Shown here piece by piece: positions 31,408 to 52,936 of a DNA stretch of 64,000 nt. The notes beneath the pieces are model-generated. The model was not told the DNA's origin, made no database searches, and worked only from the letters and a program-made list of their open reading frames with translations. Source of the stretch: Flavobacterium sp. 140616W15. Lineage in GTDB: Bacteria > Bacteroidota > Bacteroidia > Flavobacteriales > Flavobacteriaceae. The stretch spans positions 1,054,001-1,118,000 of the forward strand of contig NZ_CP033068.1 of assembly GCF_003668995.1 (NCBI RefSeq). The letters are read 5' to 3'. The stretch's first letter is position 1; each line of letters starts with the position of its first letter. A program made the position numbers and the translations under genes.

Positions 31408-32265
31408 TTACAATATTGGTTTACGCATTGATGTTTTTCCATTCGATGGATTTCCTGTTTTGTGACAAAAGTTTTCAGGATAGTTATCGTTTCTAAAAGA
31501 AGCCCAACTTCTATATGCTTGATATGAAAATGGCTTTTTTAAATTAAACTCTATTTTTTCTCCAGTTCTTATGCAGAAACCATTTATTGGATTTTCTATT
31601 TCCGCTCTGTTTGGTCTACTATTTTGTTCTGAACCCAATTCCAGTTCGAAAGGAAAATCCTCTAATGTTTTTATTTGATTATCTCGATTTCTAATCGATG
31701 AAGAATAAAACTTTTCAGTTGTGTCTTGTAAAGTATCAGATTTTATATAATTTTTACCAAGCAATGAACTCAATATTTTCTTTTCAAAAACAGGTCTTTT
31801 TATGAAAATAGCTTCACTTTTTTCTGCAAGTTCATAACAAGTTTGCCATGCTTCATTGTCTGTATTTCTTGTGAATTTTGATAAAATATTTATTTCAGAA
31901 TAAACACCAAATTCAACATTGTTTTTAAATGAATAATCATATAAATTTATTGAAGTAATTACTCCTTTCTTTTCATTTCCATAATATTTTGCGTGAAGAT
32001 TTGGAATATAAACTATGCTTATGTTGAGAAATTTTTTGAAATAGTCAAAATCATTTTTGCTTAAACTTCTACTTACTTCTCTTTCGTTTTTACCAAAAAC
32101 AATTAAAATATGTAGTTTTGGATTATTCATATGCTTGTCAAAAAGTCTTTTGAAATAATCATCAAGTTTAATAAATGGAGAAACAATTAAAAGACTGCTT
32201 TCTGCTTCCCAAATTATTTCATAAACTGCATTTTCAAGATTTTCTCCGGTAATAAATTTTGCCAT
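31408..32265 (-). CDS. PLD-like nuclease/phosphodiesterase domain protein
   Basis: A 285-residue protein. The first 170 residues have the phospholipase-D-like fold: SLLIVSPFIKLDDYFKRLF, ILIVFGKNEREVS, then IPNLHAKYYGNEKKGVITSI with H91-x-K93, followed by an Asn and a D in SINLYDYS. Only one HKD-like motif is present, so the enzyme should act as a dimer, as in bacterial Nuc-type nucleases and restriction-associated PLD enzymes. The C-terminal third is unrecognised and has two His/Cys-containing stretches (GFCIRTGEKIEF, ENFCHKTGNPSNGK) that might form a small metal site. It is probably a stand-alone nuclease. The flanking hairpin and repeats mark it as accessory cargo. Confidence 0.7.
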   Translation of the reverse strand: MAKFITGENLENAVYEIIWEAESSLLIVSPFIKLDDYFKRLFDKHMNNPKLHILIVFGKNEREVSRSLSKNDFDYFKKFLNISIVYIPNLHAKYYGNEKKGVITSINLYDYSFKNNVEFGVYSEINILSKFTRNTDNEAWQTCYELAEKSEAIFIKRPVFEKKILSSLLGKNYIKSDTLQDTTEKFYSSSIRNRDNQIKTLEDFPFELELGSEQNSRPNRAEIENPINGFCIRTGEKIEFNLKKPFSYQAYRSWASFRNDNYPENFCHKTGNPSNGKTSMRKPIL

Positions 32266-33742: not shown

Positions 33743-34777
33743 ATGACTCAGGAAAATTTAATTCCGGCAATTGAAACACTTTTAAATGTTGTAAATCAAA
33801 TAGTTCAAGAGGATAAGCTTGTAGAGGCCCTGGAGCTTATGGATGAGAAATTTTCAAATATCTCGCTGGATGTAAAGAACTCGATAATAATGAATAAAGC
33901 TAGATTAAAAAGACTCGAGAATAAAATTATCGCAGCTACCATTTCTAATGAAAATGCCGATGTTGAAAGGGCGAGTATTGCCAGTAATCTTCTAAGAATT
34001 AATAATAACGTTCCATCTGAAATTCATACAGTGCAGTTGTTAGGAAAGATGAAAAGCATTTATGTTGCAAGTGAAGAGACACATTTAGAAAAGATTATTG
34101 GCCCATATAATAATCTGGTAAAAATAAAGTGGCTTCAGCAAGCTATTGAATGTGCTAAGAGTGTTTGCCAGGTAGTGCGGACCGATGGTGTAAAAGGAAC
34201 AGGATTCGTACTGGAAGGCGGCTATTTGATGACTAATTTTCATATACTTCCCTCTGAAGAAAAAATAAAGAATGCTAAAATAGTATTTGACTATGAAGAA
34301 GATTTTTTGGGAAATGCTAGAAGTACCTCAGAATTCCTTTTGGACGCCACCAATTGGAAAGGCAGTCCAATTCAGGAAATGGATTACGCCTATGTTAAGA
34401 TAATTGACAACCCTTCTAATCCGATTGCAAAGTGGGGATTTCTTGAATTAGACACATTTACAGAACCACAAAATGGTTCTCCTGTTACGATAATACAGCA
34501 TCCTTTAGGTCAAACCAAGCAAATTGCCCTTACCGCAAATTCAATAATCAATGTTGATGGAAGAAAGATTTTCTATGAAACAGATACCGAAAAAGGATCG
34601 AGTGGGTCTCCGGTTTTTAATAATGATTGGAAAGTGATTGCCTTGCACCATGCCGGAAAAACAGAAGATGAAGGGGGATTACTAATTAATTCACAAACTG
34701 GCGAAAGTCGGGGAGCAAATGAAGGGATCTTGATTAAATATATTGCTGAGATGCTCTGGCCCAATATTCCATCTTAA
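33743..34777 (+). CDS. EAD-like domain fused to trypsin-like serine protease
   Basis: A 344-residue protein. Residues 1-90 form a helical effector-associated-like domain: repeated LNVVNQIVQEDKLVEALELM, then the IIMNKARLKRLENKIIAATI / SNENADVERASIASNLLRI pattern (N..R..RLE....GTIS...A..ER), close to what I know as EAD11. Residues 135-340 are a trypsin-like peptidase with a full triad: His167 (MTNFHILP), Asp214 (MDYAYVKI) and Ser287 (KGSSGSPVF). No signal peptide is present, so it acts in the cytoplasm. Proteases with such adaptor domains are effectors in NTPase-controlled conflict systems, where the adaptor pairs with the same domain on another protein. A matching domain is on the P-loop protein at 37045. 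It is the first gene of a five-gene co-directional set. Confidence 0.75.
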   Translation: MTQENLIPAIETLLNVVNQIVQEDKLVEALELMDEKFSNISLDVKNSIIMNKARLKRLENKIIAATISNENADVERASIASNLLRINNNVPSEIHTVQLLGKMKSIYVASEETHLEKIIGPYNNLVKIKWLQQAIECAKSVCQVVRTDGVKGTGFVLEGGYLMTNFHILPSEEKIKNAKIVFDYEEDFLGNARSTSEFLLDATNWKGSPIQEMDYAYVKIIDNPSNPIAKWGFLELDTFTEPQNGSPVTIIQHPLGQTKQIALTANSIINVDGRKIFYETDTEKGSSGSPVFNNDWKVIALHHAGKTEDEGGLLINSQTGESRGANEGILIKYIAEMLWPNIPS

Positions 34778-34828
34778 CGATTGATTTAATTTTCATCAAA
34801 TATTTTCTACCAACTAAATTATAAAAAT

Positions 34829-36142
34829 ATGACAGTAAATGAATTTATAACCACAGCCCGACAGGTCATTAGTGATGATCCTAAAACACGACTCTCTGCA
34901 AAGGCAAAGCAGGCCATTACTGATAAAGAGTGTATAATTGATATTCATACTCATATTTTTGACAGAAGATGCTTGAGTACCGGTTATGTTTTGCTTCGAA
35001 TGCTTAAGAGCAAATTAAAAGATTTACTTGGTTTAGAATCTTTTGAGGTAGATAGTCTTCTCATTAAAACAGAAGAGGAAATTTATGAGGAAATTAAAGC
35101 CAATGATTTAAACTCGGAAGCAGACTGGGAGAAATTAGAATCCGACCTGGAAACAGTTGCTGAGCTTACATCTGAAATAGAGTTTTTAGGACTTGATATA
35201 AGGGAAGCCTTAAGAGTATTGAAAAAAGGAAGTATGAGAGAAGTTCTGGATCATTACGTTGATAATTTTTCGGTTGTACAGCTACCATCGTATAAGAACA
35301 GGCCTTTTTTAACAGGGGTTTTAATGATGGATTTAGCAACAGGGTGGGATATGAAACCACGTAAATGTTTAAGCGCACAGATTGACGAAATTAAAGCCAT
35401 CATGGCCGATCGACCGATCTTACCTTTTTTGGCCATCGATCCCAGAAGAGTATCATTAAATGACAAAGAAGAAAACATTTATGATCTATTTATAAAAGCA
35501 TTTAACGATCGTCAGGCACCTTTTTTTGGTGTAAAATGCTACCCGTCGATGGGCTATTTGCCAACTGATGTAAGGTTGGATCCAATTTTTAAAATTTGTG
35601 CTGAGAAAAACATACCTGTTGTTTCGCATTGTGGGGGCGAGTCGGTATCTACATTTGAGAAAAGTATTGTGGTAGAAGATCAGACCGGGGTGCATAACTT
35701 CGTGATTCCCGGTAATTCAAGACCTGAAAGAGCGCGGTATTTAAATAATCCCGAAGCCTGGATACCAGTGCTTGAGAAATATCCAAAACTAAAATTAAAT
35801 CTGGCACATTTTGGCGGAGATGATTTTTGGTTAAATCACAGTAAAACTAATTTGGGAGATGTAAGAGTGAAAAAAATAATTGCAATGCTAAAGAATCCTA
35901 ATTGGAATGTGTACACAGATTTTTCCTTTAATTTAGTAGAAAGTGAGCTTTTTGAAACTTTTAAAAAAGAACTTGATGCCAATGCTGAGATTCAGAGCAA
36001 AGTAATGTTTGGAACTGATTATTGGGTGGTTTTACCTGCAGGAGATCTTCTGAATACACAAGGTGAATTTTTGGATCAATTAACGGACTATAGTGATAGA
36101 ATGATCAGTACTGCGCCATTAGATTTTATACTTAAGATATAA
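34829..36142 (+). CDS. TIM-barrel amidohydrolase-like metalloenzyme
   Basis: A 437-residue protein of the amidohydrolase_2-like group. Metal ligands are visible in order: HxH at 40-42 (IIDIHTHIFD), a possible bridging Lys236 (FFGVKCYPSMGY), His267 (PVVSHCGGES), His327 (LNLAHFGGDD) and Asp397 (MFGTDYWVV). The set is complete, so it should bind one or two metals and be active. Residues 55-150 form an unusual helical insert. Its placement between the EAD-protease and the NTPase genes (gaps of 51 and 18 bases) makes it a component of the same system: an effector that destroys a metabolite or nucleotide, or an enzyme that produces a signal. Which it is cannot be told from the sequence. Confidence 0.72.
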   Translation: MTVNEFITTARQVISDDPKTRLSAKAKQAITDKECIIDIHTHIFDRRCLSTGYVLLRMLKSKLKDLLGLESFEVDSLLIKTEEEIYEEIKANDLNSEADWEKLESDLETVAELTSEIEFLGLDIREALRVLKKGSMREVLDHYVDNFSVVQLPSYKNRPFLTGVLMMDLATGWDMKPRKCLSAQIDEIKAIMADRPILPFLAIDPRRVSLNDKEENIYDLFIKAFNDRQAPFFGVKCYPSMGYLPTDVRLDPIFKICAEKNIPVVSHCGGESVSTFEKSIVVEDQTGVHNFVIPGNSRPERARYLNNPEAWIPVLEKYPKLKLNLAHFGGDDFWLNHSKTNLGDVRVKKIIAMLKNPNWNVYTDFSFNLVESELFETFKKELDANAEIQSKVMFGTDYWVVLPAGDLLNTQGEFLDQLTDYSDRMISTAPLDFILKI

Positions 36143-36160
36143 CTGCTAAAATTTATAAAT

Positions 36161-36910
36161 ATGAACGAATTAGAAGCTTATATAACGGGACTTGAACTGT
36201 ACGATTCAGAAAATAAACTACCATTCACGGTACGAAAAGTTACAGATGATCTTTATGAAGGTACCGAAGAGGAAAGTGCAACTATTAATTTTAAGAGTGT
36301 ACAGTCTTTTGAGGCAGGAGTATCTGCTGAACGCCAGGAAGATGTTTTAAATTCACTTTTACTGGCCCAAAGAGTAGCAACAAAAGCTTTTCCAGACGAT
36401 GAGCAATTGATGGATTGGCATAAGAGGTACTTTGAAGTTTTAGAAAGACTCGGATGGGTATTTGCAAATACCGGATTTGACTCCTATGAGAGTCAAAGCA
36501 ATTTATTTGGAATTGAAAAAAATTTACTCGAAGTGCTGGGAACTGTCCTGACCGGAAATCAATTGGCAATAATAGTCAAATCGATACAGGCTCTGAAATC
36601 ACTGAGCAGCGAGGATAAACGCTTTGTTGCCTTTGAAAAGAATACACACTCGCTCAATAAGGGTAATTTTCAGATAGGAATTGCTACAGAGCAGAATAAT
36701 GTTTTGTCTATTTCTTCCACCGCCTTTGTTGTCAAAGCGAGCAAAAAGTTTTCCAGAATTTTATTTTTTAGTACAGAGAAAGAAAATGTCGAATTTAAGT
36801 ATTGTGATATAAAAGCCATACTTAATGAGGCGCAGTTTGCCACAGGAAGAGATAGTCTTAAAAAAAAGCTGGGCGACACAAGTGAATATATTGCAGACCT
36901 GGACATATGA
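36161..36910 (+). CDS. Unrecognised protein of the EAD/NTPase operon
   Basis: A 249-residue soluble protein, no family recognised. The N-terminal third is beta-rich (NKLPFTVRKVTDDLYEGTEE). The middle is helical (QRVATKAFPDDEQLMDWHKR, LFGIEKNLLEVLGTVLTGN). The C-terminus returns to strands (FQIGIATEQNNVLSISSTAF, FSRILFFSTEKENVEFKYCD). The last helix is KKKLGDTSEYIADLD. No catalytic motif, signal peptide or membrane segment is visible. It lies 18 bases after the amidohydrolase gene and is followed by a 134-base gap, the longest in the set, which may hold an internal promoter. Confidence 0.6.
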   Translation: MNELEAYITGLELYDSENKLPFTVRKVTDDLYEGTEEESATINFKSVQSFEAGVSAERQEDVLNSLLLAQRVATKAFPDDEQLMDWHKRYFEVLERLGWVFANTGFDSYESQSNLFGIEKNLLEVLGTVLTGNQLAIIVKSIQALKSLSSEDKRFVAFEKNTHSLNKGNFQIGIATEQNNVLSISSTAFVVKASKKFSRILFFSTEKENVEFKYCDIKAILNEAQFATGRDSLKKKLGDTSEYIADLDI

Positions 36911-37044
36911 TAGTTTAACAAGGTAAGTTTTGTTCTAGTTGGCGGAATTTCGCCAATTCTATCCCGGTGCTATCTGGCTTTAATTTTGAAACATTTCGCA
37001 CAAAGGTTAATTCAAACACATTTTCACCAATAAAAAAAGGAATT

Positions 37045-38085
37045 ATGACCCCTCTTGAAACGATACAACATCTTTTAACGCAGGATAAGTTGGAAGATGC
37101 ATTGAAATTGTTGATCTTAGAATCGCCAAAATTTTCATCTGGATTTCATATTCAAACGATGCAACTTAATGGCAGGCTATCAAAAGATAACAATGATAAA
37201 GTTAGTAACGTATCTGATCCACTAGAACGCGATAGAATAAGATACGCGACTCTGGGATTAACCCAAACACTAATGGGCTTTCCTACTGTATCAGGTCAAG
37301 TTGTAGCAACCTCAGCCGATCATCTTTTAAATAATAAATGTTATCCCTTTATAGATCGTATCCAATTCAGGGAATTTCTGAAGAGGCAGATTCATGGAAA
37401 TGGAGCCAAAATGATTTTCATTAATGGGCCATCAAAATCAGGGATGTCTTATCTGGAGAATTATTTGATCCATTTGAGTACTCTCAACAGTTTGTTTTCA
37501 GTAGTGCGAATTAATGCTGCTGTTGATTTAAATGGACCTGAACCATTTAAAGGAGTCAGTCTGGCCAAATTGCTTGGTATAGAATTGGGACTCGATTTAA
37601 ATCTGGACACTGATGAACTAGATCAATTTAAGTTTACTAGATTTGGTATTAAATTAAAAGAAAAATTGCTTGCAAATGATACAATTCCATTGATATTTAT
37701 TCACGATTTTCATCACCTGCAAGCCACTCCGGACATCGCTAAATTTATTTTAAAACTTGCAGATGTGTTCCGCCAGGATTTTCCCAAAGTGATTTTTCTA
37801 ATTGCCGGGATGGACTATGAAAAGTTACCAAATTGGGAGTCGAGTTTGAGAATGCATTGCTCGGTTTACCACATTGAAACTATTGACAGGGTAAATGTGG
37901 AAGTATGTCTAGACGGGATTTTTGATTATTATCAGCCAAAAATACTGGCCTTAGGAGATAGTTCTATAACTAAGACGGAATATGTTAACGGAATGATTAG
38001 TCGCCTAATTCCAGATGAAAACAATATCAATCTTGCCAGTGTTGGCTATATGATTTCAGATCATTTAATGCAATTAAACAATTAA
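37045..38085 (+). CDS. EAD-like domain fused to a P-loop domain with altered Walker A
   Basis: A 346-residue protein. The start at 37045 gives MTPLETIQHLLTQDKLEDAL; the longer frame adds an unrelated leader. Residues 1-80 form an EAD-like helical domain (KLLILESPKFSSGF, QLNGRLSKDNN, DPLERDRIRYATLGLTQTLM) of the same kind as that on the protease at 33743. From about 118 an AAA/STAND-like core follows: MIFINGPSKSGMSYL at 124-137 is a P-loop whose Lys is Met134, IPLIFIHDFHHLQ is Walker B, and LIAGMDYEK follows. Loss of the P-loop Lys suggests weak or no ATP hydrolysis, so this may be an adaptor that links protease and the large NTPase. Confidence 0.72.
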   Translation: MTPLETIQHLLTQDKLEDALKLLILESPKFSSGFHIQTMQLNGRLSKDNNDKVSNVSDPLERDRIRYATLGLTQTLMGFPTVSGQVVATSADHLLNNKCYPFIDRIQFREFLKRQIHGNGAKMIFINGPSKSGMSYLENYLIHLSTLNSLFSVVRINAAVDLNGPEPFKGVSLAKLLGIELGLDLNLDTDELDQFKFTRFGIKLKEKLLANDTIPLIFIHDFHHLQATPDIAKFILKLADVFRQDFPKVIFLIAGMDYEKLPNWESSLRMHCSVYHIETIDRVNVEVCLDGIFDYYQPKILALGDSSITKTEYVNGMISRLIPDENNINLASVGYMISDHLMQLNN

Positions 38086-38097
38086 ATTTTGAAAGAT

Positions 38098-40701
38098 ATG
38101 CAGCAGTCAGCATTTAATTTTGATAAGTTGTTCAGCAACCTTGAACAAAAAGAAGCCAAAGACTTCAATAAGGAAGTTTTTATCAGAGCCTCTTTATTGT
38201 TTGAGTTTAGTATTGAATCCGATTTTCCGAATTGCAACAAAGATGATCTCGAATTATTGAAAATTGAATCCTGTTTAAAAAAGGATGGCAGGTATTTTTT
38301 AAAGGACCCAATCAGAGCTAAAATTCTCACCGAAACAATAGGTATTGGAAACATACAAAAGGAGATAGAAAAATATAATATTGGGGGAGATTATGCCCGA
38401 TTGCTAATTTTACTTTTGAATAGTAAAAAAATTCAATACGATAATTTTAGGGATGATGAAATATATTATCTTTTAAAATTAGCTGACCTCTTCCCTGATA
38501 AACTAGATTTGGAAGTGCTCAAAAATGACCTTTTAAGGAGGAATTATTTTGTTCCTTTTAGAGAAATTACCAAAAATTTTGCAGGAAGAAAAAAGGAACT
38601 TGCAGCTATAAATGACTATATAGATTGGCTCCCAAAACAAGGTCTGGTTAATAAAACCTTGGGATTTGTTAGAAATGCCATTAACTGGCATGATAAATTG
38701 CCCATTTTAATTCAGGGAATCGGAGGAATCGGCAAGTCATCATTAATATCAAAAATAATTATAGATAATAATGAGTTGAGAAAAGTGGGGAAACTGCCTT
38801 TTGTTTATATCGATTTTGATGTGCCAGGATTTTCACTTGTAGAGCCGATGGGTTTATTGCTCGAGGCAATTCGTCAATTGTCATTTCAATTTCCTAAAAA
38901 TAAAGATATTTTTTCAAAAGTTGCCAGGGAGATTTCAAGTAAAACATCTTTTGAATATGAAGCGAATCATTCAACACAATCCCATAGAGGAAATATATAT
39001 AATTCTATAGATAATTTATTGTACCAATATGAGCTTGTATTAAATCAAATCAAAGACCCGATCTTGGTGGTGTTTGATTCTTTTGAGGAAATTCAGTATA
39101 AGGCATCCCGAACAGAACTCTCTAATTTTTTTAGTTTCATACGGGAAATTTCTGAAAAACTGCCCCGCATTCGAATAGTATTTGTGGGCAGATCTGAAAT
39201 TGATGAAAGTTTGGCAGATTTTAAATTTGATAAAATTGTTTTGGCAGAATTTGATGAGGATTCAGCTTTGTCATTACTGGAGAAGTATAAGATTACAAAT
39301 AAAGCCGATAGAATTAAAATTTTTAATGATTTTGGAGGAAATCCATTGCTGCTTTCACTTGCTGCTGATTTAGTTGAAAAAGATCCCTCAGCACTGGAGA
39401 ACTTAAGTAAAATAACAGAGAAGAAGGAGAAATACCTTGTAAATCGTATTTTGGAACATATTCATGATCCGGAAGTACGCGAAATGGCAGTTCCCGGATT
39501 ACTCGTTAGAAGAATCACTCTCGATGTGATAAAACATGTTTTGGCACCGCCATGTCGTTTGGGTAATATTTCCATAGAGAGAGCCACTGAATTATTTGAT
39601 GAACTCAAAAAAGAAGTTGCCCTTATTTCCAGATCTTCTGAGGCTGATGAAATTATTTTTCGTCAGGATTTACGTATGGCATGTGAAGATACTGTCAAAT
39701 CAAGCTATCCAACGGCATCACAACATATAATTCGTAACGCCATAGCGTATTATGATCGTATGAAAGAAGAGGGTGAGAAATACGAAGCGGAATTCTATTT
39801 TCATATTTTAAAAGAGGAAGAAGATATTGAAAGACTTACAAAACCAGATTATCTGCGACTACGCACAAAATTAGAATCTGCTTTGGTTGAATTGCCAGAT
39901 GCTTCGAAATTGTACCTTCGAACTCTTTTGGGCTCGCAAGCAGAAACCAATATAGTAAATAACTCAAAAGATTATAATTGGTCAAATTATTTTATTCCTC
40001 AAATGAAGGAAGGATTAAATTCAAACTTGGACTTTTTGAAAAAGCTTGATCAAGAAATAAGTAGTCGAGATTATGATATGCAAATAATTGATCCCGATTT
40101 CTTAATTTATGATGTTTTATTAAAACAGCGGTTAAACAAGATTTCACAATCGAACGATTTAATAGAGCGATTTATCAAAGTGAAAGATGACTTACGAAAT
40201 AGCAGTCAAAATTTTGTAATGACGTACTATCAGCTTTGTTTTTTAAAAGCTCAAAATCATGAATATAATGGAGAATATCAGCTCGCCATTGAAATATGTC
40301 AGGAAAATTACAATACTATGTTGATAAAGGATCGCCTACTGAATGAAAAATTCGCATTTCTATTAACCCGATTACGAGCCAGAACTGGCAAACTGCCCCA
40401 GAAAATAGTAAAAGATAGTTATAATTTGCAGCATAAATACAATGACAGGTTTAATAATGAGTTTAAAGATACAAACTGGAATTATGTATTAAGCAATACA
40501 ATTAATTATCACTTTTTTAATAGTGATGATTTTATTCATTTGAGCAGAAAATATCAATTAGTACTCACAGATATTTCAATTCTGGAAGATCATTGTTATA
40601 AAACACTCGGTGTCTATTTAAAGGATATTGCACTGGCAGGGGACTTTCAGGTTTTGTTAAATGATTACTTATTGGCATTAGAAGTAAGAAGATTGCTTTG
40701 A
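38098..40701 (+). CDS. STAND/NACHT-like NTPase with C-terminal helical repeats
   Basis: An 867-residue protein starting at ATG 38098 (an upstream TTG would add three residues). Residues 1-150 are helical and unrecognised. The NTPase begins near 165 (NFAGRKKELAAINDYIDWL). Walker A is 207-214 (QGIGGIGKSSLI), Walker B is near 325 (DPILVVFDSFEE), and a sensor-like RIVFVGRSE ends at about 367. A winged-helix-like part (VRRITLDVIKHVLAPP) and TPR-like helices follow to the end (YQLCFLKAQNHEYNGEYQLA). The full P-loop means active ATP hydrolysis. By analogy with Avs and other STAND proteins, the C-terminal part should sense a ligand and the NTPase assemble an activated complex. It is the last gene of the five-gene set, 12 bases after the adaptor. 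Confidence 0.75.
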   Translation: MQQSAFNFDKLFSNLEQKEAKDFNKEVFIRASLLFEFSIESDFPNCNKDDLELLKIESCLKKDGRYFLKDPIRAKILTETIGIGNIQKEIEKYNIGGDYARLLILLLNSKKIQYDNFRDDEIYYLLKLADLFPDKLDLEVLKNDLLRRNYFVPFREITKNFAGRKKELAAINDYIDWLPKQGLVNKTLGFVRNAINWHDKLPILIQGIGGIGKSSLISKIIIDNNELRKVGKLPFVYIDFDVPGFSLVEPMGLLLEAIRQLSFQFPKNKDIFSKVAREISSKTSFEYEANHSTQSHRGNIYNSIDNLLYQYELVLNQIKDPILVVFDSFEEIQYKASRTELSNFFSFIREISEKLPRIRIVFVGRSEIDESLADFKFDKIVLAEFDEDSALSLLEKYKITNKADRIKIFNDFGGNPLLLSLAADLVEKDPSALENLSKITEKKEKYLVNRILEHIHDPEVREMAVPGLLVRRITLDVIKHVLAPPCRLGNISIERATELFDELKKEVALISRSSEADEIIFRQDLRMACEDTVKSSYPTASQHIIRNAIAYYDRMKEEGEKYEAEFYFHILKEEEDIERLTKPDYLRLRTKLESALVELPDASKLYLRTLLGSQAETNIVNNSKDYNWSNYFIPQMKEGLNSNLDFLKKLDQEISSRDYDMQIIDPDFLIYDVLLKQRLNKISQSNDLIERFIKVKDDLRNSSQNFVMTYYQLCFLKAQNHEYNGEYQLAIEICQENYNTMLIKDRLLNEKFAFLLTRLRARTGKLPQKIVKDSYNLQHKYNDRFNNEFKDTNWNYVLSNTINYHFFNSDDFIHLSRKYQLVLTDISILEDHCYKTLGVYLKDIALAGDFQVLLNDYLLALEVRRLL

Positions 40702-41173: not shown

Positions 41174-41183
41174 AGGTATTATG

Positions 41184-41265
41184 TGCTGGATATGGGATTC
41201 GAACCCACACATCTTTCGATAATCGTTTTCAAGACGATCGCGTCTACCAATTTCGCCAATCCTAA
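41184..41265 (-). tRNA. tRNA with Ser(UGA) anticodon on a Leu-like body
   Basis: On the reverse strand an 82-base sequence folds as a class II tRNA. The D arm GGCGAAATTGGTAGACGCG is typical of tRNA-Leu. The anticodon arm is ATCGT-CTTGAAA-ACGAT (anticodon UGA at 41231-41229). The long variable arm is ATC-GAAA-GAT, and the T arm is GTGGG-TTCGAAT-CCCAT. Base 73 is A, as in Leu rather than Ser tRNAs. The acceptor stem pairs only at its inner four positions (GGAT/ATCC); the 5' end TTA does not match GC..A at the 3' side, where GCT would pair perfectly. CCA is not encoded. It is either a real tRNA with an odd identity or one damaged at the 5' end by recombination. A terminator follows. Confidence 0.7.
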
Positions 41266-41672: not shown

Positions 41673-41957
41673 TTAAACGGTGAAATAAATTATGCTCTTC
41701 TGATTTCTATTTCTCTTTGGAAGATAATTTATATAACCGTAATCATTCAGGTCTCTGATACATCTATGGTAGGTAACAGGGCCGCTTATTTTAGCAATCT
41801 TCATAATTTCATGCCTATAGGCTTTAATAGGATTAACATAGCCTGCGGCAGTTCTGAATTGTAGTAATGCCGCAAAAATTCCAATATGCGTAATGCTGAT
41901 ACGTTGATCTTTTTCTATTGCTTTGAAGAATTGCGTTAAAGGATTTAGCTGGTCCAT
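41673..41957 (-). CDS. Winged-helix-like protein of the conjugative element
   Basis: A 94-residue protein (MDQLNPLTQFFKAIEKDQRI, THIGIFAALLQFRTAAGYVN, then IMKIAKISGPVTYHRCIRDL and DYGYINYLPKRNRN). The middle reads as a helix-turn-helix (AKISGPVTYHRCIRDLNDYG) followed by a wing. It resembles the MarR/replication-type winged helix often at the end of Bacteroidota tra operons. It is the last gene of the reverse-strand cluster, 12 bases after the preceding one. Its 3' half is duplicated at 33.0 kb. It may regulate the element. Confidence 0.7.
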   Translation of the reverse strand: MDQLNPLTQFFKAIEKDQRISITHIGIFAALLQFRTAAGYVNPIKAYRHEIMKIAKISGPVTYHRCIRDLNDYGYINYLPKRNRNQKSIIYFTV

Positions 41958-41969
41958 TACTCTTGTTAT

Positions 41970-43013
41970 TTAGATTTTTATTCCGGTTCTTCTCGACTGA
42001 TTTTGTTTGGGTAATTTAAGATTCTGATTTTGTTCATGATTTTTTTGCAGCTCTGTTCGTAATGAAGTTATATCTACTTTACGTAAATGCTGATCGTAGA
42101 TTGTTAAAGATTTAAAATGAGGATCAGCCTCAATATGGAATAGCTGTTCTTTTCCATTTTTAATCAATACTGCTGATATCCTGTCACCTTGCTTTAAAGT
42201 ATTTTTTAGTTTCTCAAATTCAAATTTATTTGAGGCAGCTTTTAAAGGAACAGCTTTTAATGTCTTTTCTAAATCGTAACCATATCCATTTCGAAATTCT
42301 TTCAGATGATTATTTCCTGCGGCATCTTTATCGTTAAAGTCTATCTGGAACCATGATTCATTATGATATACCGAGCGGCCGGATAATAAATTATGGACCC
42401 CATGCAGTTTGAAATTGTATCCCTGCTCATTTTTAAAATAATACTGTCTGTTTTCTTCTGAAATAATATTATTATACAGGCTGCTTTTGTATCCTTCAAG
42501 CTCAAAATATCCTTCAGCATTTTTAGAAAACGTAAGGTTGTGATTAATTTTTTCTGTTTCATTAATGTAATAGGATAGAGATAGACTAAAGTTTTCTTGC
42601 GCTTTTTCAATAAGCATTTTTAATTTCTCTGAGAGGTCAGGAAATCCAATTCGCTGCATCTGCTCCTGCAGCGAATTGAAATTTTTTTCTGCTTTTTTAA
42701 CATCACTGCGAATGGAAACCTGATTTTGTGAAGCAGTAATTATTTTTCTGAAAAAGCGGGAAATTAAACCCGGATACAGCTGCTTTGACATTCTGTTGCT
42801 TTCCATTTTAAGAATTCGAAGGGAATGCTGCTCTTCTATATTTTTTGAAGATTTGTATTTAGCCCTGATTCTTTCAAACTGGCGCAGTTTCTCTGCAAGT
42901 AAAGATTTATTATCAGCCGGTGTAATTGAAAACAAGGTACTGAAGCGTTCTTCTCTGGCTTTCCACTGTCTGAATTCTATTTCTACTCTGTTTATGGGAA
43001 ACTGCTCATTCAT
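41970..43013 (-). CDS. Conjugative-element protein, paralogue of the next gene upstream
   Basis: A 347-residue protein. Residues 1-165 are helical and charged (FRQWKAREERFSTLFSITPA, LQEQMQRIGFPDLSEKLKML). Residues from about 165 share an ordered motif set with the 266-residue protein encoded just upstream: HNLLSGRSVYHNESWFQIDF, NGYGYDLEKTLKAVP, LKQGDRISAVLIKNGKEQLF and HIEADPHFKSLTIYDQHLRKV. This module is of the DUF3945/DUF4099-like kind in Bacteroidota elements (name unverified). Basic C-terminal tail (KLPKQNQSRRTGIKI). It lies 27 bases after the paralogue. Function unknown. Confidence 0.65.
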   Translation of the reverse strand: MNEQFPINRVEIEFRQWKAREERFSTLFSITPADNKSLLAEKLRQFERIRAKYKSSKNIEEQHSLRILKMESNRMSKQLYPGLISRFFRKIITASQNQVSIRSDVKKAEKNFNSLQEQMQRIGFPDLSEKLKMLIEKAQENFSLSLSYYINETEKINHNLTFSKNAEGYFELEGYKSSLYNNIISEENRQYYFKNEQGYNFKLHGVHNLLSGRSVYHNESWFQIDFNDKDAAGNNHLKEFRNGYGYDLEKTLKAVPLKAASNKFEFEKLKNTLKQGDRISAVLIKNGKEQLFHIEADPHFKSLTIYDQHLRKVDITSLRTELQKNHEQNQNLKLPKQNQSRRTGIKI

Positions 43014-43040
43014 GACTTAAGGTTTAATTCTCCAGAATTT

Positions 43041-43841
43041 CTAAACTGAGTTAGATTGTTTTCTTTTTTTTTTGTTTGCGGCAGGGGTTTCGGTGCTGTC
43101 TTCAGTAGTTTGAGATTGTTTTGTGGCAGATTGCTTTTCCGATGTTTTTTCTCCTTCGGCCTGCTTCTGGTCTTTACTTTCACGTTGGTTAATTCTCTGG
43201 AAACTGCAATCATAAACATTTACTGTTTTAAACTGCGGATTAGCTTCAACATACATTTTTGTTTCCGTACCGCCCACCGTAAAAGTTACCGACTGCAGAT
43301 TTCCTTTTTTAAGAGAATTTATAAGGTCTTCTTTGTATTTGGGAGTTTGAAGCTCTTTAATGGAATGTTTTTCAAGACTGGCCTGAAGATCATAGCCATA
43401 ATTCTGGTGGTACTGATTTAATTTGAAGCTGCCCGAATTTTCGGTTTGCTTAAAGTCGATTTTGATCCAGGCGTTGTACGCTTCGCCTTCTTTAGTTTTC
43501 AGGTCTTTGTTCACCGAACGTCCCTGCATTAAATTATAAGCTTCCTTGAGTGTGATACTCGTACCGTCATTATTGATATAAAAAGTCTGCCCAAGTGCTT
43601 CCTTTGAATCCTCTTTTTTTAAATTCACATGATAGGAATTAAAAAAATACATGTCGGTCTGGTCTGATTTCTTAAAGTTTAGATCAACCGACATTGTATC
43701 TTTATTATAGACACCATTATGAGTGATTTTAAATTCTTTTTCTCCTTTGGCCATACGCTCTCTCAGTTCAGTATCGAACGTTTCTCCAAAACCGGTATAT
43801 TTCAACTGATCTTTCAGGTACTCTATATTTTTCTGATTCAT
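43041..43841 (-). CDS. Conjugative-element protein with shared DUF-like module
   Basis: A 266-residue protein. Residues 1-215 carry the module in shorter form: YNLMQGRSVNKDLKTKEGEA, NAWIKIDFKQTENSG, YGYDLQASLEKHSIKEL, LKKGNLQSVTFTVGGTETKM and YVEANPQFKTVNVYDCSFQR. The tail is lysine/threonine rich and disordered (KKKRKQSNSV at the end). The paired module in two adjacent genes indicates an old duplication. It lies between TraN and the second paralogue. It probably belongs to DNA processing or regulation, but no catalytic residue is visible. Confidence 0.65.
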   Translation of the reverse strand: MNQKNIEYLKDQLKYTGFGETFDTELRERMAKGEKEFKITHNGVYNKDTMSVDLNFKKSDQTDMYFFNSYHVNLKKEDSKEALGQTFYINNDGTSITLKEAYNLMQGRSVNKDLKTKEGEAYNAWIKIDFKQTENSGSFKLNQYHQNYGYDLQASLEKHSIKELQTPKYKEDLINSLKKGNLQSVTFTVGGTETKMYVEANPQFKTVNVYDCSFQRINQRESKDQKQAEGEKTSEKQSATKQSQTTEDSTETPAANKKKRKQSNSV

Positions 43842-43870
43842 GGTACAATTATTTTAAAGTTATTACTGAT

Positions 43871-44719
43871 TTAAAAACCGTTAAGAATATCCAGATGTGT
43901 TAAATGGCTATTCTTTATATTTGTTGCTATGTGCCTGCCGCCGTTTTTCTCCATAAGCTGAATAGTGAGGTATTTTTTCTCCGGGATAGTAAACTTTGAA
44001 AAAGCATATACCATGCTGACTTCGGATTTATCCGCAATAACAGACGAGCTGTAGGTGGAATAAAGAGGCAGTATCTCGATTTCCTGGGAAGCGGTGCGTT
44101 TTGACTTTTTCTGGTCTCGTATAAAAAATCGCAGCTGGTCAATATCGTAATTAATCTTTGAGGCATTACCTAGGGCTATTCTCAGGTATAGCACATCCTG
44201 ATGGATGAAAATGCCATTAACCATAATCTTCATTTCATATTTCTCCCTTTTAAGCCCGCTTATTTTTTTATTTTTAGATAAGGCAAGCCTGGCATTCTGC
44301 TCAATTTTCTTCTGGTTTTCATTATCCAGCGAAAACAGGATATCGTCATTTACAACAGCGGTATGATCAGCCTTTATATTTAAATGCGGACAGGCGTCAT
44401 CATAATTTAAAATAAATACATAAAGCCGGCTGTCGGCTGTAACAACCGTTAGATTGGTCTGCGGGAAATTTTGTTTTGCCGCTTTTAGAAGAAGGATGTT
44501 TTCAGCTCCTCTGGCTTTCTGAATTAAAATATCCGCACTTCCCTTGTCTGCACTTTTTACGGCATAGGGAAAAACGATGCTTGTGGTTTTAGAGTAGCCG
44601 ATCTGCAGGTTTTTATACTTATCTTCATTATAACCTGCATTCTTAGTAATGAACTGTGCATATCCTGATAAACAGCTCAGAAGTATGCAGGCCGTAACCA
44701 GCCATTTATAGTTTTTCAT
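43871..44719 (-). CDS. traN: Conjugative transposon protein TraN
   Basis: A 282-residue secreted protein (MKNYKWLVTACILLSCLSGYA signal) with the TraN/DUF4138 pattern: QIGYSKTTSIVFPYAVKSAD, GAENILLLKAAKQNFPQTNL, TVVTADSRLYVFILNYDDA. TraN is the VirB9-like part of the CTnDOT-type mating channel at the outer membrane side. It follows TraM by 12 bases, which matches the M-N order of the operon. Confidence 0.85.
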   Translation of the reverse strand: MKNYKWLVTACILLSCLSGYAQFITKNAGYNEDKYKNLQIGYSKTTSIVFPYAVKSADKGSADILIQKARGAENILLLKAAKQNFPQTNLTVVTADSRLYVFILNYDDACPHLNIKADHTAVVNDDILFSLDNENQKKIEQNARLALSKNKKISGLKREKYEMKIMVNGIFIHQDVLYLRIALGNASKINYDIDQLRFFIRDQKKSKRTASQEIEILPLYSTYSSSVIADKSEVSMVYAFSKFTIPEKKYLTIQLMEKNGGRHIATNIKNSHLTHLDILNGF

Positions 44720-44731
44720 ATTTATTTCTTT

Positions 44732-46018
44732 TTATTGGTTGAAATTCTTTTGTTTCTCATCGTAGAGCAGTACCTGATATCCAGCTTTAACCTGAACTTT
44801 TATGAGTTTTACCTTTTTGCTCATCAGGCTTTTGGCCGCTTCAATTCCCATCCCTGCCGCCTGTGCTCCAAAGGAATCCGTGATGCCGGTAAGTCCCAGA
44901 GTCTGGATGGAGCGGTCTGCAGAAGCCTTGGCTGAATCTCTGTCAATAGTTCCCGGGACATAAATTCCCTCAATGCCGTCAATGTCATAAACTGATAATT
45001 GAATGGGGAAAATCGAGCTGCGGTATTGAATGTTGTCGATTTTGACCTCAAGTCTTTCCCCTTTTAAAGCCGCAGTGCCGTATAAAAAAGTGTTTTTTGG
45101 AATAACGTTTCCCTGGAGTGTCACATCATTATTCAGGCGAAACTTAACGATTGATCCGTTTACAATAGTCTGGGTTTCGTGAATGACGGCCTCAATTGAA
45201 TTCTGCTGCTGTGAATCTAGATCCTCCTCAATGGTATAAAAAGAGTTTGGTTTTACAGCTGTAGCAACCGGACCCTGCTCCAGAGAGGAAAAATTATTTT
45301 CTGCTTTTTTATGGTTTACTGCATATGTTTTTCCCTTTTTACTCTCGGATGATTGTTTTAAACGTTCCTGAACCCTTGAAGGATGCTGGATATCGAGTAT
45401 GTTTTCCAGCATGCCGCCAAGCTGAGCGAGTTCAGCATCAGGCTGTGTGGATTCTCCCATCGCCGACATCATCTTTTCAAGGTGCTGCATTTCATCGGTT
45501 ACACCTTTTGATGACCCGTAGTTTTCAAACTCGCGCATATCATAGACGTGCTTATCCAGCACTGTCTGCTGGTTGACCGCTTTTTGAAGCGCCTGGAGTT
45601 TTTCATAGATTTTCTGCTCATTTCTGTCCTGAAGAGGTTTTGAATTCAGACCTGTTCTGTTTTTTGAAAAGCCCTGCGTACTAAAATCTGATTTTGTAAA
45701 ATCATTCAAAGATTCTTCCAGAATTTTTTGATTGGAGTAATTGGGGTCTTTTTTAATCTGCTCTTGCAGTTTTACAGAATCGACAGCTGCCTGATCGTAG
45801 TAACTCATTTTATCCAGAGAAGAATCTTCTTTGAATTTTGGAATTGGAAGAGTAAAGTTGAATCCTTTTTTGATTTTACTTTCAGCTTCTGCTTCTTCCA
45901 TTGTGCCTCCTCCCAAAATATAAAACAGCAGGGTTATAAAAGGAAGCGTAGTGACCGGCATTACCAGCAGCATCTGGCGTTTTTTAGATGCTCTAAGAGA
46001 TATTGTTTTTGTTTCCAT
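44732..46018 (-). CDS. traM: Conjugative transposon protein TraM
   Basis: A 428-residue protein (METKTISLRASKKRQMLLVM start) with one N-terminal membrane span (LLVMPVTTLPFITLLFYILG), a long charged, probably disordered middle, and a C-terminal globular part (IVKFRLNNDVTLQGNVIPKN, LYGTAALKGERLEVKIDNIQ, GMGIEAAKSLMSKKVKLIKV). This is the VirB10-like layout of Bacteroidota TraM, which spans the inner membrane and reaches the outer one. It follows the small TraL-like gene by 11 bases. Confidence 0.85.
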   Translation of the reverse strand: METKTISLRASKKRQMLLVMPVTTLPFITLLFYILGGGTMEEAEAESKIKKGFNFTLPIPKFKEDSSLDKMSYYDQAAVDSVKLQEQIKKDPNYSNQKILEESLNDFTKSDFSTQGFSKNRTGLNSKPLQDRNEQKIYEKLQALQKAVNQQTVLDKHVYDMREFENYGSSKGVTDEMQHLEKMMSAMGESTQPDAELAQLGGMLENILDIQHPSRVQERLKQSSESKKGKTYAVNHKKAENNFSSLEQGPVATAVKPNSFYTIEEDLDSQQQNSIEAVIHETQTIVNGSIVKFRLNNDVTLQGNVIPKNTFLYGTAALKGERLEVKIDNIQYRSSIFPIQLSVYDIDGIEGIYVPGTIDRDSAKASADRSIQTLGLTGITDSFGAQAAGMGIEAAKSLMSKKVKLIKVQVKAGYQVLLYDEKQKNFNQ

Positions 46019-46029
46019 GTTCTTGTTTT

Positions 46030-46287
46030 TTATTGGATTTTCTTAATTTTTGTAGCCGCATCTGCCTTTGTAAGTGATGCAGGGCAGCTATCTGTGAACG
46101 AATTGTAAATGTTATAGAGAAAATAACCGGTTGTTAAAGCAGTAAACAACACCAGTAGCAAAAGGAGTTTTCTTCTGGAAAGCCCTTGTGTCAGTCTGCT
46201 CATTTTCTCAGTCCATTTGTGCTGGGCGGCAGTGTAATATTTATTATAAACAAATGGAATTTCCTTTTTTCTAAACAGTGATTTCAT
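46030..46287 (-). CDS. TraL-like small membrane protein
   Basis: An 85-residue protein: basic N-terminus (MKSLFRKKEIPFVYNKYYTA), one membrane span (LLLLLVLFTALTTGYFLYNI), short periplasmic tail with one Cys. Position between TraK and TraM and size fit TraL (DUF3989). It overlaps neither neighbour but lies within 6 and 11 bases of them, so it is translated with them. Confidence 0.7.
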   Translation of the reverse strand: MKSLFRKKEIPFVYNKYYTAAQHKWTEKMSRLTQGLSRRKLLLLLVLFTALTTGYFLYNIYNSFTDSCPASLTKADAATKIKKIQ

Positions 46288-46292
46288 AAGAT

Positions 46293-46913
46293 TTATTTTC
46301 TGTTTTCAACCGCTAAATCGGTATTCTCAATAGTATTGAAGCGTTCAATTAAAAAACCATGAGGATTGTTGTCACTTCTCGATACATTGCGAAGGCTCCC
46401 TTCCGTAATCAGGTTTCTTTTCAAAATGCTCGTGGTTCTGATAATGTTCTGTCTGGCAAAACATTTAAATCGGTAGGGATAGTCTTTGATATCAACAGCA
46501 ATACTATCTATCTGAATGGTCTGGCTGATATTCCCTGAAATTATTCCCGAGTAAAAGCCATTTTCTTTCAGGTCGTCATAAATCCGCTTGGCGCTTTCAT
46601 CAGCCAGATAAAGGGCCTTGGTAATATTGGTTTTAATTACTTTGTCATCAGGATCAAGGGTGAAGAAAAACTTATGAAAAGTCTTGACGTGATCCCTGGC
46701 TTCCACAGGCAGGTTATCCTTTCTCTCAGAAGCATATACCTCCAGCGCTTTTCCGGCGGCAAGGATATATACCTTGTCCTGCATTTTAGCGACGGTCTGA
46801 AAACTTTTGTGAAGCGTAAAACAGCATATCACAACGCAGCCCGCAATAACCAGCATTGTAAAGCCTCTCACGTATTTAAATGCGGTATCTATATTTTTCA
46901 TTTTGCTGAACAT
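46293..46913 (-). CDS. traK: Conjugative transposon protein TraK
   Basis: A 206-residue protein with the TraK N-terminus (MFSKMKNIDTAFKYVRGFTM) and one membrane span (MLVIAGCVVICCFTLHKSFQ), followed by a periplasmic VirB8-like domain (AAGKALEVYASERKDNLPVE, ARDHVKTFHKFFFTLDPDDK). TraK helps assemble the channel and links to TraM. It lies 17 bases after TraJ. A start at the second Met is possible. Confidence 0.85.
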   Translation of the reverse strand: MFSKMKNIDTAFKYVRGFTMLVIAGCVVICCFTLHKSFQTVAKMQDKVYILAAGKALEVYASERKDNLPVEARDHVKTFHKFFFTLDPDDKVIKTNITKALYLADESAKRIYDDLKENGFYSGIISGNISQTIQIDSIAVDIKDYPYRFKCFARQNIIRTTSILKRNLITEGSLRNVSRSDNNPHGFLIERFNTIENTDLAVENRK

Positions 46914-46930
46914 GGGATGATCTTTTACGT

Positions 46931-48127
46931 TTATTTTGAATTCCCTTTAAGCCTGTTGCTCATGTAATTTCCTTTCTCTTCAAAATAGGGAGCCGAAGCG
47001 CCCGATGCCGACATACTCTGTGACATTCTTCCTGCTGCATTCCCCATGGAATCCATAACCATTGCAGTTCCCTGTGATGTTTTGGAAACCACAGAGACCG
47101 CTGAGGTGCTAAGTAGGGTAGTGGCTTTCTGGCTCAGGGCCCCGCCGCCGCCTGCATGCACGATGTAGTTAGCCACTGAAGGCACAGTGAAGTAGCCTAT
47201 AATGCCGATAATCATAAATATCAAATAAGCAATGTCAGTACTACTGAAAAAGGTGTCCCCGGTGGACTGCACCTGGGACAAATCCAGCTTGAGCATCAGT
47301 TCCTGTATCTTTCCGATTATGCTTCCAAAAATATTAGCCACAGGAAGCCACAGGTATATATTTATGTATCTGGCCAGCCAGACCGTCAGTGTATGCTGGA
47401 ACCCGTCAAAAACGGCAATGCCGAAAACAAGCGGGCCGAGAATGGAGAGCACCACAAGTTGAAAGGTCCTGAGTGTATCAATGCAGAGGGCCGCCGATTC
47501 AAATAAAATCCTAAGCACCTCGCTCATCCATTCCTTGATGGAATTCCTAAAACTATAGGACGCTTTTTCCATGGCAAATTTCACATCATTGCCTATGCCC
47601 GCCAGCATGCTTTCATCAGATGGGACCGCACCGTCATGGGTGTACTTGTACCATTTATCGCGGTCTCCGGTCCCTGTCGCGCCTACATACATTTTCCAGG
47701 GATCGGTCTGCTGAACTGTCTTTTCTTTTTCTTTTAAAAGAACGGCAACAGCATTATTGGATCCTGTTACCATAGCAGCTGTTGCGGTAACAGTGGGTTT
47801 CATAACTCCGTTGATAAGGGCCAGCACCGAAGGGAAAATCATAATGCAGAACCCAATTACAAAAGGGCGGAACAGCGGATAAAAATCAATTGGCTCCGCT
47901 GCTGCAATATGTCTCCAGACACGCGAAGCGACGTACCAGAGGGTCCCAAATCCTGCAATTCCCTGTCCGACAGCCAGCAGATTGCCACACAGAGGCATCA
48001 TCTCATCATAAAGCTGGTCCAGCACCAAGTGCAGGCTTTGCATGTTATCGCCCAGCCCCTGTGCTCGACTTAAAAAAGGAAGCAGCATAGCTGAGAGAAC
48101 AATTTTGTTTTTTATTGGCAGTTTCAT
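46931..48127 (-). CDS. traJ: Conjugative transposon protein TraJ
   Basis: A 398-residue polytopic membrane protein. The start at 48127 gives MKLPIKNKIVLSAMLLPFLS, a signal-like N-terminus; the longer frame adds a lysine/cysteine leader that would overlap the upstream gene. It has several spans (FVIGFCIMIFPSVLALI, LVVLSILGPLVFGIAVF, IAYLIFMIIGIIGYFTV) and the typical AGGGGALSQKA segment near the end. It is the VirB6-like polytopic subunit of the inner-membrane complex. The preceding small secreted gene ends 4 bases upstream. Confidence 0.85.
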   Translation of the reverse strand: MKLPIKNKIVLSAMLLPFLSRAQGLGDNMQSLHLVLDQLYDEMMPLCGNLLAVGQGIAGFGTLWYVASRVWRHIAAAEPIDFYPLFRPFVIGFCIMIFPSVLALINGVMKPTVTATAAMVTGSNNAVAVLLKEKEKTVQQTDPWKMYVGATGTGDRDKWYKYTHDGAVPSDESMLAGIGNDVKFAMEKASYSFRNSIKEWMSEVLRILFESAALCIDTLRTFQLVVLSILGPLVFGIAVFDGFQHTLTVWLARYINIYLWLPVANIFGSIIGKIQELMLKLDLSQVQSTGDTFFSSTDIAYLIFMIIGIIGYFTVPSVANYIVHAGGGGALSQKATTLLSTSAVSVVSKTSQGTAMVMDSMGNAAGRMSQSMSASGASAPYFEEKGNYMSNRLKGNSK

Positions 48128-48131
48128 CTCT

Positions 48132-48767
48132 TTAGTTTTTAAGTTCCTGCAGCTCTTTGGAAGCATAAACATCATTTTTCTCTTTTGCCCGCTGCAGTGC
48201 CAGGATATTTGAAGAAGCATTAAAATTTCGAAGAAAAAGCAGCTTATCCTGCATCTGTAGATAGATCATATCCACCGATTGTAGTCTTTCATCATCGGAC
48301 ATCCTGAGTTTATCAGCAGTAACGGTCATAGTGAGTTCATCAAGATTCCGTAGGCTCTGGCTGAGCAGATTCCCGTAAACCCTTTCAAAATATCCAATTT
48401 CCTGCGCGCTGAAGCTGCCGCTTCGCGCAAACCGGTTCAGTCCGTTTCTGCTTTCCTTTATCAGCAGTATTTGAAAATTTATAATTTCACCCACTCTTTT
48501 GTAATTCTTTACCGCCGGGCTTACCTGCATAAGGGCGTCTAAAAAAGTTTTATGCAGGCTGAAGTTGCCCTGAGACATATCCTTCACTGTTTTATAACCT
48601 CCCGAGAGCAGTTCATAGCCCTTTTTCATATCACTGAGGATCTTTTTAAACTGGGAGAGTTTTTCAATGTTCAGGATCAGCTGTTGTATTTCTGCTGACT
48701 GGGCGCGAACTTTGCCTGGTATCATAGACAGGCAGATAAGCAGTCCTAAAATCAATATCTTTTTCAT
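48132..48767 (-). CDS. TraI/VirB5-like secreted paralogue 3
   Basis: A 211-residue exported helical protein (signal MKKILILGLLICLSMIPGKV). It shares the layout of the two genes upstream: long helix, then INFQILLIKESRNGLNRFAR, EIGYFERVYGNLLSQSLRNL, and a C-terminal ILALQRAKEKNDVYA. The ALQRAK motif is in paralogue 1 as SLQRAKTE and in paralogue 2 as ALSKAADQ. It is probably a pilus or channel-tip minor component. Third in a tandem of three, 11 bases after the second. Confidence 0.65.
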   Translation of the reverse strand: MKKILILGLLICLSMIPGKVRAQSAEIQQLILNIEKLSQFKKILSDMKKGYELLSGGYKTVKDMSQGNFSLHKTFLDALMQVSPAVKNYKRVGEIINFQILLIKESRNGLNRFARSGSFSAQEIGYFERVYGNLLSQSLRNLDELTMTVTADKLRMSDDERLQSVDMIYLQMQDKLLFLRNFNASSNILALQRAKEKNDVYASKELQELKN

Positions 48768-48778
48768 TATTTTTAAGT

Positions 48779-49393: not shown

Positions 49394-49409
49394 GATATTT
49401 TTCTTTGCA

Positions 49410-50093: not shown

Positions 50094-50106
50094 TGTTCAT
50101 TTTCAT

Positions 50107-52575: not shown

Positions 52576-52608
52576 TTCTCCTTCATTTTTATTTCAAACG
52601 TTCTATAA

Positions 52609-52923
52609 CTATATCTTAATGAAAACAGACCTGCTGTACACTTTAATACATTTTGGAATCTGTTTTTTCGCTAGTGCCTTCATCATGCCGTACTCTCCAT
52701 ACTTATTACTCATTCTATAAATCTTCAGCACAAGAAAGGCTCCTGCTGTTCCTATCAAACCAACACATAGGAGGGAAGGCAGACCGATAATGTACATAAT
52801 GGCAAAAAGGATCATAAGGGCGACAACCCCGCCTCCTAAATACCAGATGTACTGCGCTTTTAATCCCTTGAATTCTATGCTTTGGTTGATTCCCTTGTTG
52901 ATCTGGTAAACACTGCTGCCCAT
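52609..52923 (-). CDS. traF: Conjugative transposon protein TraF
   Basis: A 104-residue protein with two membrane segments (YIWYLGGGVVALMILFAIMY and LLCVGLIGTAGAFLVLKIYR) and the TraF/DUF4133 start (SSVYQINKGINQSIEFKGLK). Position between TraE and TraG is the standard E-F-G order. Probably VirB3-like inner-membrane subunit. Confidence 0.88.
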   Translation of the reverse strand: MGSSVYQINKGINQSIEFKGLKAQYIWYLGGGVVALMILFAIMYIIGLPSLLCVGLIGTAGAFLVLKIYRMSNKYGEYGMMKALAKKQIPKCIKVYSRSVFIKI

Positions 52924-52936
52924 TGCCTCTTTGCCT

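Follow-up and report, generated by a model that had tools for sequence, protein, structure and literature searches.

A rare EAD11-bearing protease and STAND operon of Flavobacterium encodes a predicted Cyt-fold protein, a candidate membrane executioner

INTRODUCTION

Bacterial conflict systems can join their parts through EADs, with one copy on an enzyme and another on a core component (Kaur et al. 2020, PMC7159879). Published examples include inactive STAND modules that bear EADs and have trypsin partners (PMC7159879, PMC8195603), as well as a system with two STAND proteins, the motifs of one of them being eroded, and with GT4 or HEPN effectors (Kaur et al. 2021, PMC8195603). Here, we examined a five-gene operon (g1 to g5) at positions 33743 to 40701 of a 64,000-nucleotide stretch of the genome of Flavobacterium sp. 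140616W15 (contig NZ_CP033068.1, positions 1,054,001 to 1,118,000; the window). Like EAD-coupled NTPase systems, this operon has the same EAD on a trypsin-like enzyme and on a core NTPase-type component. Unlike them, it has no MoxR-vWA pair and adds a protein with a predicted Cyt fold and an amidohydrolase; the main texts of PMC7159879 and PMC8195603 mention no amidohydrolase, Cyt1, endotoxin, or cytolysin. A preliminary description of the operon, made from its sequence, had held that EADs link effectors to NTPase-centered systems, in agreement with the published principle (PMC7159879).

The operon also resembles the CARD-NLR gasdermin systems in having a helical adaptor on a trypsin-like protease (g1) and an NLR-like NTPase (g5), and the outcome in those systems is cell lysis, as we propose for the operon. 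Bacterial systems of this kind were reportedly described by Wein in 2025. The operon differs from them in that EAD11 takes the place of CARD and a predicted Cyt/volvatoxin-like fold that of gasdermin, and in the addition of an eroded STAND protein and an amidohydrolase. The combination of protease, NLR, and lysis has been established for the CARD-NLR-like LypABC (PMC13236601). In Hachiman, AVAST, Lamassu, and DRT, a trypsin-like protease beside a pro-effector gene has been acquired by unrelated immune cores, and activation of the neighbor by the protease has been established for the pro-nuclease in Hachiman and AVAST (PMC12799240). In those pairs, the pro-effector is an MBL-fold nuclease, whereas the operon encodes a predicted membrane-damaging protein. 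The Cyt protein Cyt1Aa is itself activated by proteolysis (PMC7052140).

We propose, with a probability of about one half, that the five genes form a death system of an NLR-like, EAD-coupled kind, in which the g1 protease would cleave g3 into a membrane perforator. That it is an EAD-coupled, NLR-like conflict operon in the broader sense we hold to be very probable. Its EAD11, trypsin, and STAND parts are of a known kind. Among the matches listed from open-licence literature, there was neither a Cyt-fold effector in bacterial immunity nor a Cyt-fold putative executioner common to several protease-centered systems.

RESULTS

Five intact, co-directional open reading frames (ORFs) were called in the window at 33743 to 40701, as follows.

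33743..34777, + strand: g1, EAD11 and trypsin-like protease (Pfam, aligned triad)
34829..36142, + strand: g2, metal-dependent hydrolase of the Amidohydro_2 family that may be a second effector or serve as an auxiliary enzyme (Pfam, aligned residues)
36161..36910, + strand: g3, predicted Cyt/volvatoxin/Evf-fold protein, candidate pro-cytolysin (predicted model)
37045..38085, + strand: g4, EAD11 and AAA+ ORC/STAND-type domain, Walker A lysine lost (Pfam, AlphaFold2 model, PDB matches)
38098..40701, + strand: g5, STAND NTPase, putative sensor (Pfam, motifs)

With the in-frame ATG starts at 37045 (g4) and 38098 (g5), the intergenic gaps are 51, 18, 134, and 12 bases. Alternative starts exist for both genes, and g5 has 870 residues from a TTG and 867 from the ATG. 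The genes are real, tightly spaced, and intact, and the domain calls of the preliminary description mostly hold. It had reported five tight same-strand genes, an EAD-protease with an intact His/Asp/Ser triad (S287 was placed correctly), a complete metallohydrolase (H40 is indeed a metal histidine), and an 867-residue NTPase with intact Walker A and B motifs, all of which were borne out by the matches given below.

We next consider the EADs. The g1 protein matched EAD11 at 33791 to 34012 (E = 2.3e-11) and, further on, a trypsin-like domain at 34196 to 34645 (Trypsin_2, E = 1.7e-19), the triad of which (H167/D214/S287) is kept in all six aligned proteases. Its top PDB sequence matches were serine proteases of the Spl/V8 type (2.5e-5). 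No CARD model matched g1 at E ≤ 1 by sequence profile; Pfam gave EAD11 instead. The same EAD stands on g4 at 37054 to 37266, with a match (E = 9.2e-4, 19.6 bits) that lies below the curated cutoff of 26, so that one operon bears it on both an enzyme and a core component. For 6 of the 14 g4 clusters listed, the precomputed annotation includes EAD11 (PF19964), and matches below the cutoff were found on the g4 protein of Chryseobacterium sp. JM1 (locus L006; 5.2e-5) and on an EAD11 protein of locus L026 (3.1e-5). When the N-terminal profiles of g1 and g4 were compared by hhalign, a single pairwise comparison from which the g4 rows of L005, L049, and P0176 were excluded, they aligned with an E value of 2.1e-6 and a probability of 78%. 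By these sequence comparisons, both N-terminal domains are related EAD11 domains; the preliminary description would have fallen had they been unrelated or not EAD-like. The whole 4.94-Mb genome has only two EAD11 matches (E ≤ 0.001), both inside the operon. The count for the Chryseobacterium genome is likewise exactly two, and both of these lie in its corresponding operon. Five of six other genomes tested via their loci (L005, L007, L009, L023, and L041) gave zero EAD11 matches. The Saprospiraceae genome of L049 has 31 scattered matches, versus two in the window's genome.

The g3 protein had been called unknown in the preliminary description, and it indeed matched no Pfam family at E ≤ 1 and no NCBIfam family, but it can now be given a predicted fold. 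Its AlphaFold2 model (predicted local distance difference test [pLDDT] score of 89.9) matched Cyt delta-endotoxins, volvatoxin A2, and Evf. Proteins of these kinds fill the top 11 Foldseek rows, and the class D beta-lactamases below them, of low probability, were taken as noise. According to the model, g3 is thus predicted to share the fold of these membrane-damaging proteins. It comprises an N-terminal helix (36167 to 36190), a low-confidence linker (36236 to 36265), and a core (about 36272 to 36874). We rejected g3 as a gasdermin relative because the top 11 rows are Cyt, Evf, and volvatoxin. Gasdermin is also not among the 50 Foldseek rows listed or the rows listed from a second comparison, although its absence from such lists does not by itself speak against it. 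At the sequence level, 28 g3 family members matched 13 Pfam families at E ≤ 1, with one to three members each and no Cyt or pore-forming family among them; the best match, Pox_int_trans at 1.3e-4 in one member, was taken as chance. The g3 profile gave a single weak match among PDB sequences, a designed miniprotein (E = 0.18). The g3 protein differs from the Cyt, volvatoxin, and Evf proteins, with which it has the predicted fold in common, in that its relatives match no Pfam family of that kind, in its place in an NTPase-protease operon, and in a start that shows no signal peptide when read by eye. Because of this last feature, we infer that g3 is cytoplasmic.

In the g4 model (pLDDT, 85.7), a helical domain at the N terminus is accompanied by an AAA+ domain (about 37327 to 38082) that is closest to ORC/Cdc6 in the PDB, with CED-4, Dark, and Roq1 lower in the lists. 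At the Walker A place (37426 to 37449), g4 reads GPSKSGMS, without the lysine. Of 17 g4 proteins of the AAA type (18 rows less the L026 protein, which is not alignable as AAA), 16 lack this lysine, and only L049 retains it (GEKGAGKS). Nothing except EAD11 matched g4 in Pfam at E ≤ 1 with HMMER sequence profiles, no profile-profile search against published iSTAND models having been made. Judged from the model and the aligned motif, g4 appears to carry an eroded AAA+/STAND-type domain and no working P-loop NTPase, and NTP hydrolysis is not expected. The preliminary description had called g4 an EAD-adaptor on a P-loop protein; the EAD stands, but the working P-loop does not. A STAND-type fold with an eroded NTP-binding motif is a feature of iSTAND and iSTAND2 components, and g4 fits the inactive STAND modules of EAD systems (PMC7159879, PMC8195603). 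An iSTAND ternary system was rejected because Pfam found no MoxR-vWA pair among the five genes.

In g5, NPHP3_N matched with an E value of 9e-6, and NACHT and nSTAND1 matched more weakly. The motifs are GIGGIGKS (Walker A), VVFDSFEE (Walker B), and GGNP; Walker A, Walker B, and GGxP are kept in all five aligned g5 proteins. Neither the N-terminal nor the C-terminal region has a confident Pfam family, and g5 as a single sequence matched no PDB sequence at E ≤ 0.1. From its motifs, g5 is an active-looking STAND NTPase.

The g2 protein matched Amidohydro_2 (E = 8.5e-13), and all 82 sequences aligned with it share the residues D38, H40, H42, K236, H267, H327, D364, and D397. The g2 profile matched no PDB sequence at E ≤ 0.001. 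Around g3 at L005, L009, and L049, the ORFs shown contain no g2 relative; because the protease and STAND genes remain there, we regard g2 as a dispensable member. For 15 of 41 non-self g3 clusters, the longest contig equals in size that of one of 120 listed g2 clusters (compared by eye), which suggests neighboring genes but does not prove them; one further coincidence was discarded because the contig was too short for both genes.

To judge the operon as a unit, we looked for the same arrangement elsewhere. The preliminary description had called for a search for this gene order in other Bacteroidota and would have been refuted if the genes never co-occurred outside this strain. Chryseobacterium sp. 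JM1 has g1-g2-g3-g4-g5 in identical order, which answers the possibility that the five genes are grouped by chance. Partial versions stand at four other Bacteroidota loci: g1-g2-g3 (g3 in pieces only) with an EAD11 protein that has no g4-type AAA part (L026); g3, amidase, protease, g4, and g5 (L005); g3, protease, g4, and g5 (L049); and g3, protease, a 197-residue ORF with masked bases, and a STAND gene (L009). The adaptor varies, since the L009 protease carries EAD1 above the cutoff (2.4e-7), the L049 protease matches EAD1 weakly (0.0033, below the cutoff), and the L049 STAND protein has a C-terminal EAD11 (1.7e-18). For 6 of 13 non-self g4 clusters, the longest contig is equal in size to that of a g3 cluster when compared by eye, a sign and not a proof of adjacency. 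Among 395 genomes of the phylum, two gave g3, its own included. Within the order, in searches that began with a loose first look and in which part of the profile-search candidates were scored, g3 (395 genomes) and g2 (E ≤ 1e-60) were found only in their own genome, and g4 (395 genomes) was found in its own and in one weak match of 25% identity, which was disregarded. The system is rare and patchy.

We then counted the protease genes around g3. Three of 52 loci (L027, L028, and L039) gave no g3 ORF in the ORF calling and were excluded, leaving 29 Bacteroidota loci (assigned by hand) and 20 others; the partial g3 ORFs of L026, L036, L052, and L054 were included. The models were built from Pfam-defined domains, and the protease kinds and model seeds were chosen from genes seen beside g3, so the count is a description with a control and not an independent test. 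In 23 of the 29 Bacteroidota loci (Dyadobacter, 11 of 12; others, 12 of 17), g3 has a caspase, trypsin, CHAT, or subtilase gene no more than two ORFs away, the loci without one being L013, L015, L017, L032, L046, and L052. Caspase and CHAT belong to one clan. Such a gene is directly adjacent in 18 of 29, compared with 1 of 125 control ORFs (at least 150 residues long and at least 5 ORFs from g3). In 11 of these 18 pairs, g3 and the protease gene share a strand; in the other 7, all from Dyadobacter, they lie on opposite strands. In the 20 non-Bacteroidota loci, the same models found no such gene near g3 (control, 0 of 68). However, when neighbors from two of these loci were compared with Pfam, L044 gave Trypsin_2 and L038 a peptidase of the matrixin type.

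Enzymes of other kinds also accompany g3. A 1,325-residue Amidase_2-caspase-GDSL fusion directly precedes it at L010 (4908 to 8885; GDSL just below the cutoff), and domain models place these three domains no more than two genes from g3 at a total of 12 loci, from Dyadobacter, Fibrella, and Spirosoma. At L005, the gene between g3 and the protease is an N-acetylmuramoyl amidase. Such wall, membrane, and lipid enzymes side by side suggest lysis. The PADLOC caspase model fits the caspases of L007 (8e-54) and L010 (5.3e-66), and PADLOC gave no match on two g3 relatives. At L023 (8827 to 14365), g3 stands beside genes for a protease in which trypsin and subtilase are fused and for a dipeptidase of the M19 type.

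Outside Bacteroidota, g3 is often in tandem (L030, L033, L035, L037, L038, L040, L043, L044, L045, L055, L056, and L059). For L059, where a g3-sized gene follows g3, this was judged from gene size only. The aligned second copies of L030 and L055 have no N-terminal helix or linker, and the tandem copies are possibly a two-component version. Plasmids gave 49 records of g3 relatives, 45 of them from Sinorhizobium; for two of these plasmid regions, the PLSDB gene table, which is incomplete, lists no protease in the vicinity of g3. Among viral contigs, 46 stretches fit the g3 pattern and none was confirmed; phage records gave no g3 match.

The G+C content of the operon (0.33 to 0.36) is similar to that of the flanking DNA. 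Promoter-like sites are not in excess (31 versus a shuffle mean of 32.6), and none is claimed; terminator-like sites number 8, versus 4.7 in shuffles, and none was taken as evidence. On the five genes, PADLOC placed two RT-Protease_XI models on the protease part of g1 and a weak WYL match (0.011) on g3, with no match on g2, g4, or g5. Upstream, at 31408 to 32265 (- strand), is a PLD-like protein (Pfam 2.7e-4, below the cutoff) with weak similarity to DrmC (1.5e-5), possibly another defense-related gene. Downstream, a block at 41673 to 53862 (- strand) starts about 1 kb from the operon; of three of its genes compared with Pfam, two are the conjugative transposon genes TraM (5e-52) and TraG P-loop (3.2e-235) and the third has no family. 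Between the operon and this block is a tRNA-Ser gene (41183 to 41265), of which a 19-base piece near the 3' end is single in the genome (at most two mismatches), giving no sign of attachment-site duplication. At 60590 to 62978 (- strand), a PLD-domain protein (1.2e-15) lies near a 183-residue protein with apparently two transmembrane segments and a 300-residue protein, neither with a Pfam match at E ≤ 0.001. The 183-residue protein presumably resembles SLATT-type effectors.

DISCUSSION

In the mechanism that we propose, g5, alone or with g4, would sense an invader signal and oligomerize, as its STAND architecture suggests. The EAD11 on g4 would then gather and activate g1 by like-with-like contact, following the EAD principle, and activated g1 would cut g3, probably in the flexible N-terminal linker. 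The freed core, to judge from its fold, would perforate the cell's own membrane, killing the infected cell from inside, with g2 as an auxiliary enzyme or second effector. The operon would thereby do the work of a protease-gasdermin module, but by means of another pore-former. We infer g3 cleavage, pore formation, and phage defense in this way. Because the predicted fold of g3 is that of the membrane-damaging Cyt, volvatoxin, and Evf proteins, g1 more probably serves to activate g3 than to act as the last effector itself. The preliminary description had an EAD-recruited protease as effector; the EAD on enzyme and core component is upheld, but the role of final effector would more probably fall to g3.

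Several points weigh against this mechanism. No EAD was found by Pfam at E ≤ 0.1 on the protease or the g4 protein of L005. No cleavage site is invariant in g3, and 5 of 42 linkers have no lysine or arginine. At residue 281 of g1, which corresponds by eye to the position of the specificity aspartate of trypsin, g1 and the L006 and L026 proteases have D, but the remaining three of the six aligned proteases have N. Furthermore, a Cyt1Aa protoxin mutant forms membrane oligomers without proteolysis (PMC7052140).

It is also conceivable, if unlikely, that g1 is itself the executioner, cutting host or phage proteins, and that g3 is a nonlytic regulator or a substrate-presenting or lipid-binding protein. 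The intact triad of all six aligned proteases, the tandem g3 paralogues at many loci outside Bacteroidota where no protease was detected, and the fact that Cyt-fold proteins are not necessarily all lytic are consistent with such a role. However, the proteases beside g3 are of several kinds (trypsin, subtilase, caspase, and CHAT), which would be expected if they had a substrate or effector in common, and g3 also accompanies peptidoglycan amidase and lipase domains. An amidohydrolase as the main effector, with g3 as its partner or inhibitor, we find quite improbable: its catalytic residues do not vary among the 82 aligned sequences and 15 of 41 g3 clusters apparently neighbor listed g2 clusters, but g2 was not found around g3 at L005, L009, and L049, where protease and STAND genes are kept.

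A different question is the occasion of the killing. The operon might be a self-lysis or developmental death switch or serve the release of a mobile element instead of phage defense, as LypABC, a CARD-NLR-like operon, drives lysis for gene-transfer-agent release in Caulobacter (PMC13236601) and as the g1-to-g5 operon ends close to the block with TraM and TraG. Nevertheless, STAND/EAD architectures are mostly linked to conflict (PMC7159879), and we think this role rather unlikely.

Returning to g3 as a protease-activated perforator, we suggest more tentatively that it may found a family of intracellular, protease-activated Cyt-fold membrane executioners. Throughout Bacteroidota, this family would serve as a module that EAD-trypsin-STAND, caspase, CHAT-nSTAND, and subtilase systems have taken up, and lysis would often be completed by neighboring peptidoglycan hydrolase or lipase domains.

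In gasdermins, bacterial and animal cells have a protease-plus-pore death logic in common. If g3 is a pro-cytolysin, bacteria would have reached this logic with another fold as well, and insecticidal, fungal, and virulence toxins would share their fold with an intracellular suicide device. With its two matches in the genome, EAD11 gains a closed test case for the hypothesis of EAD-EAD contact.

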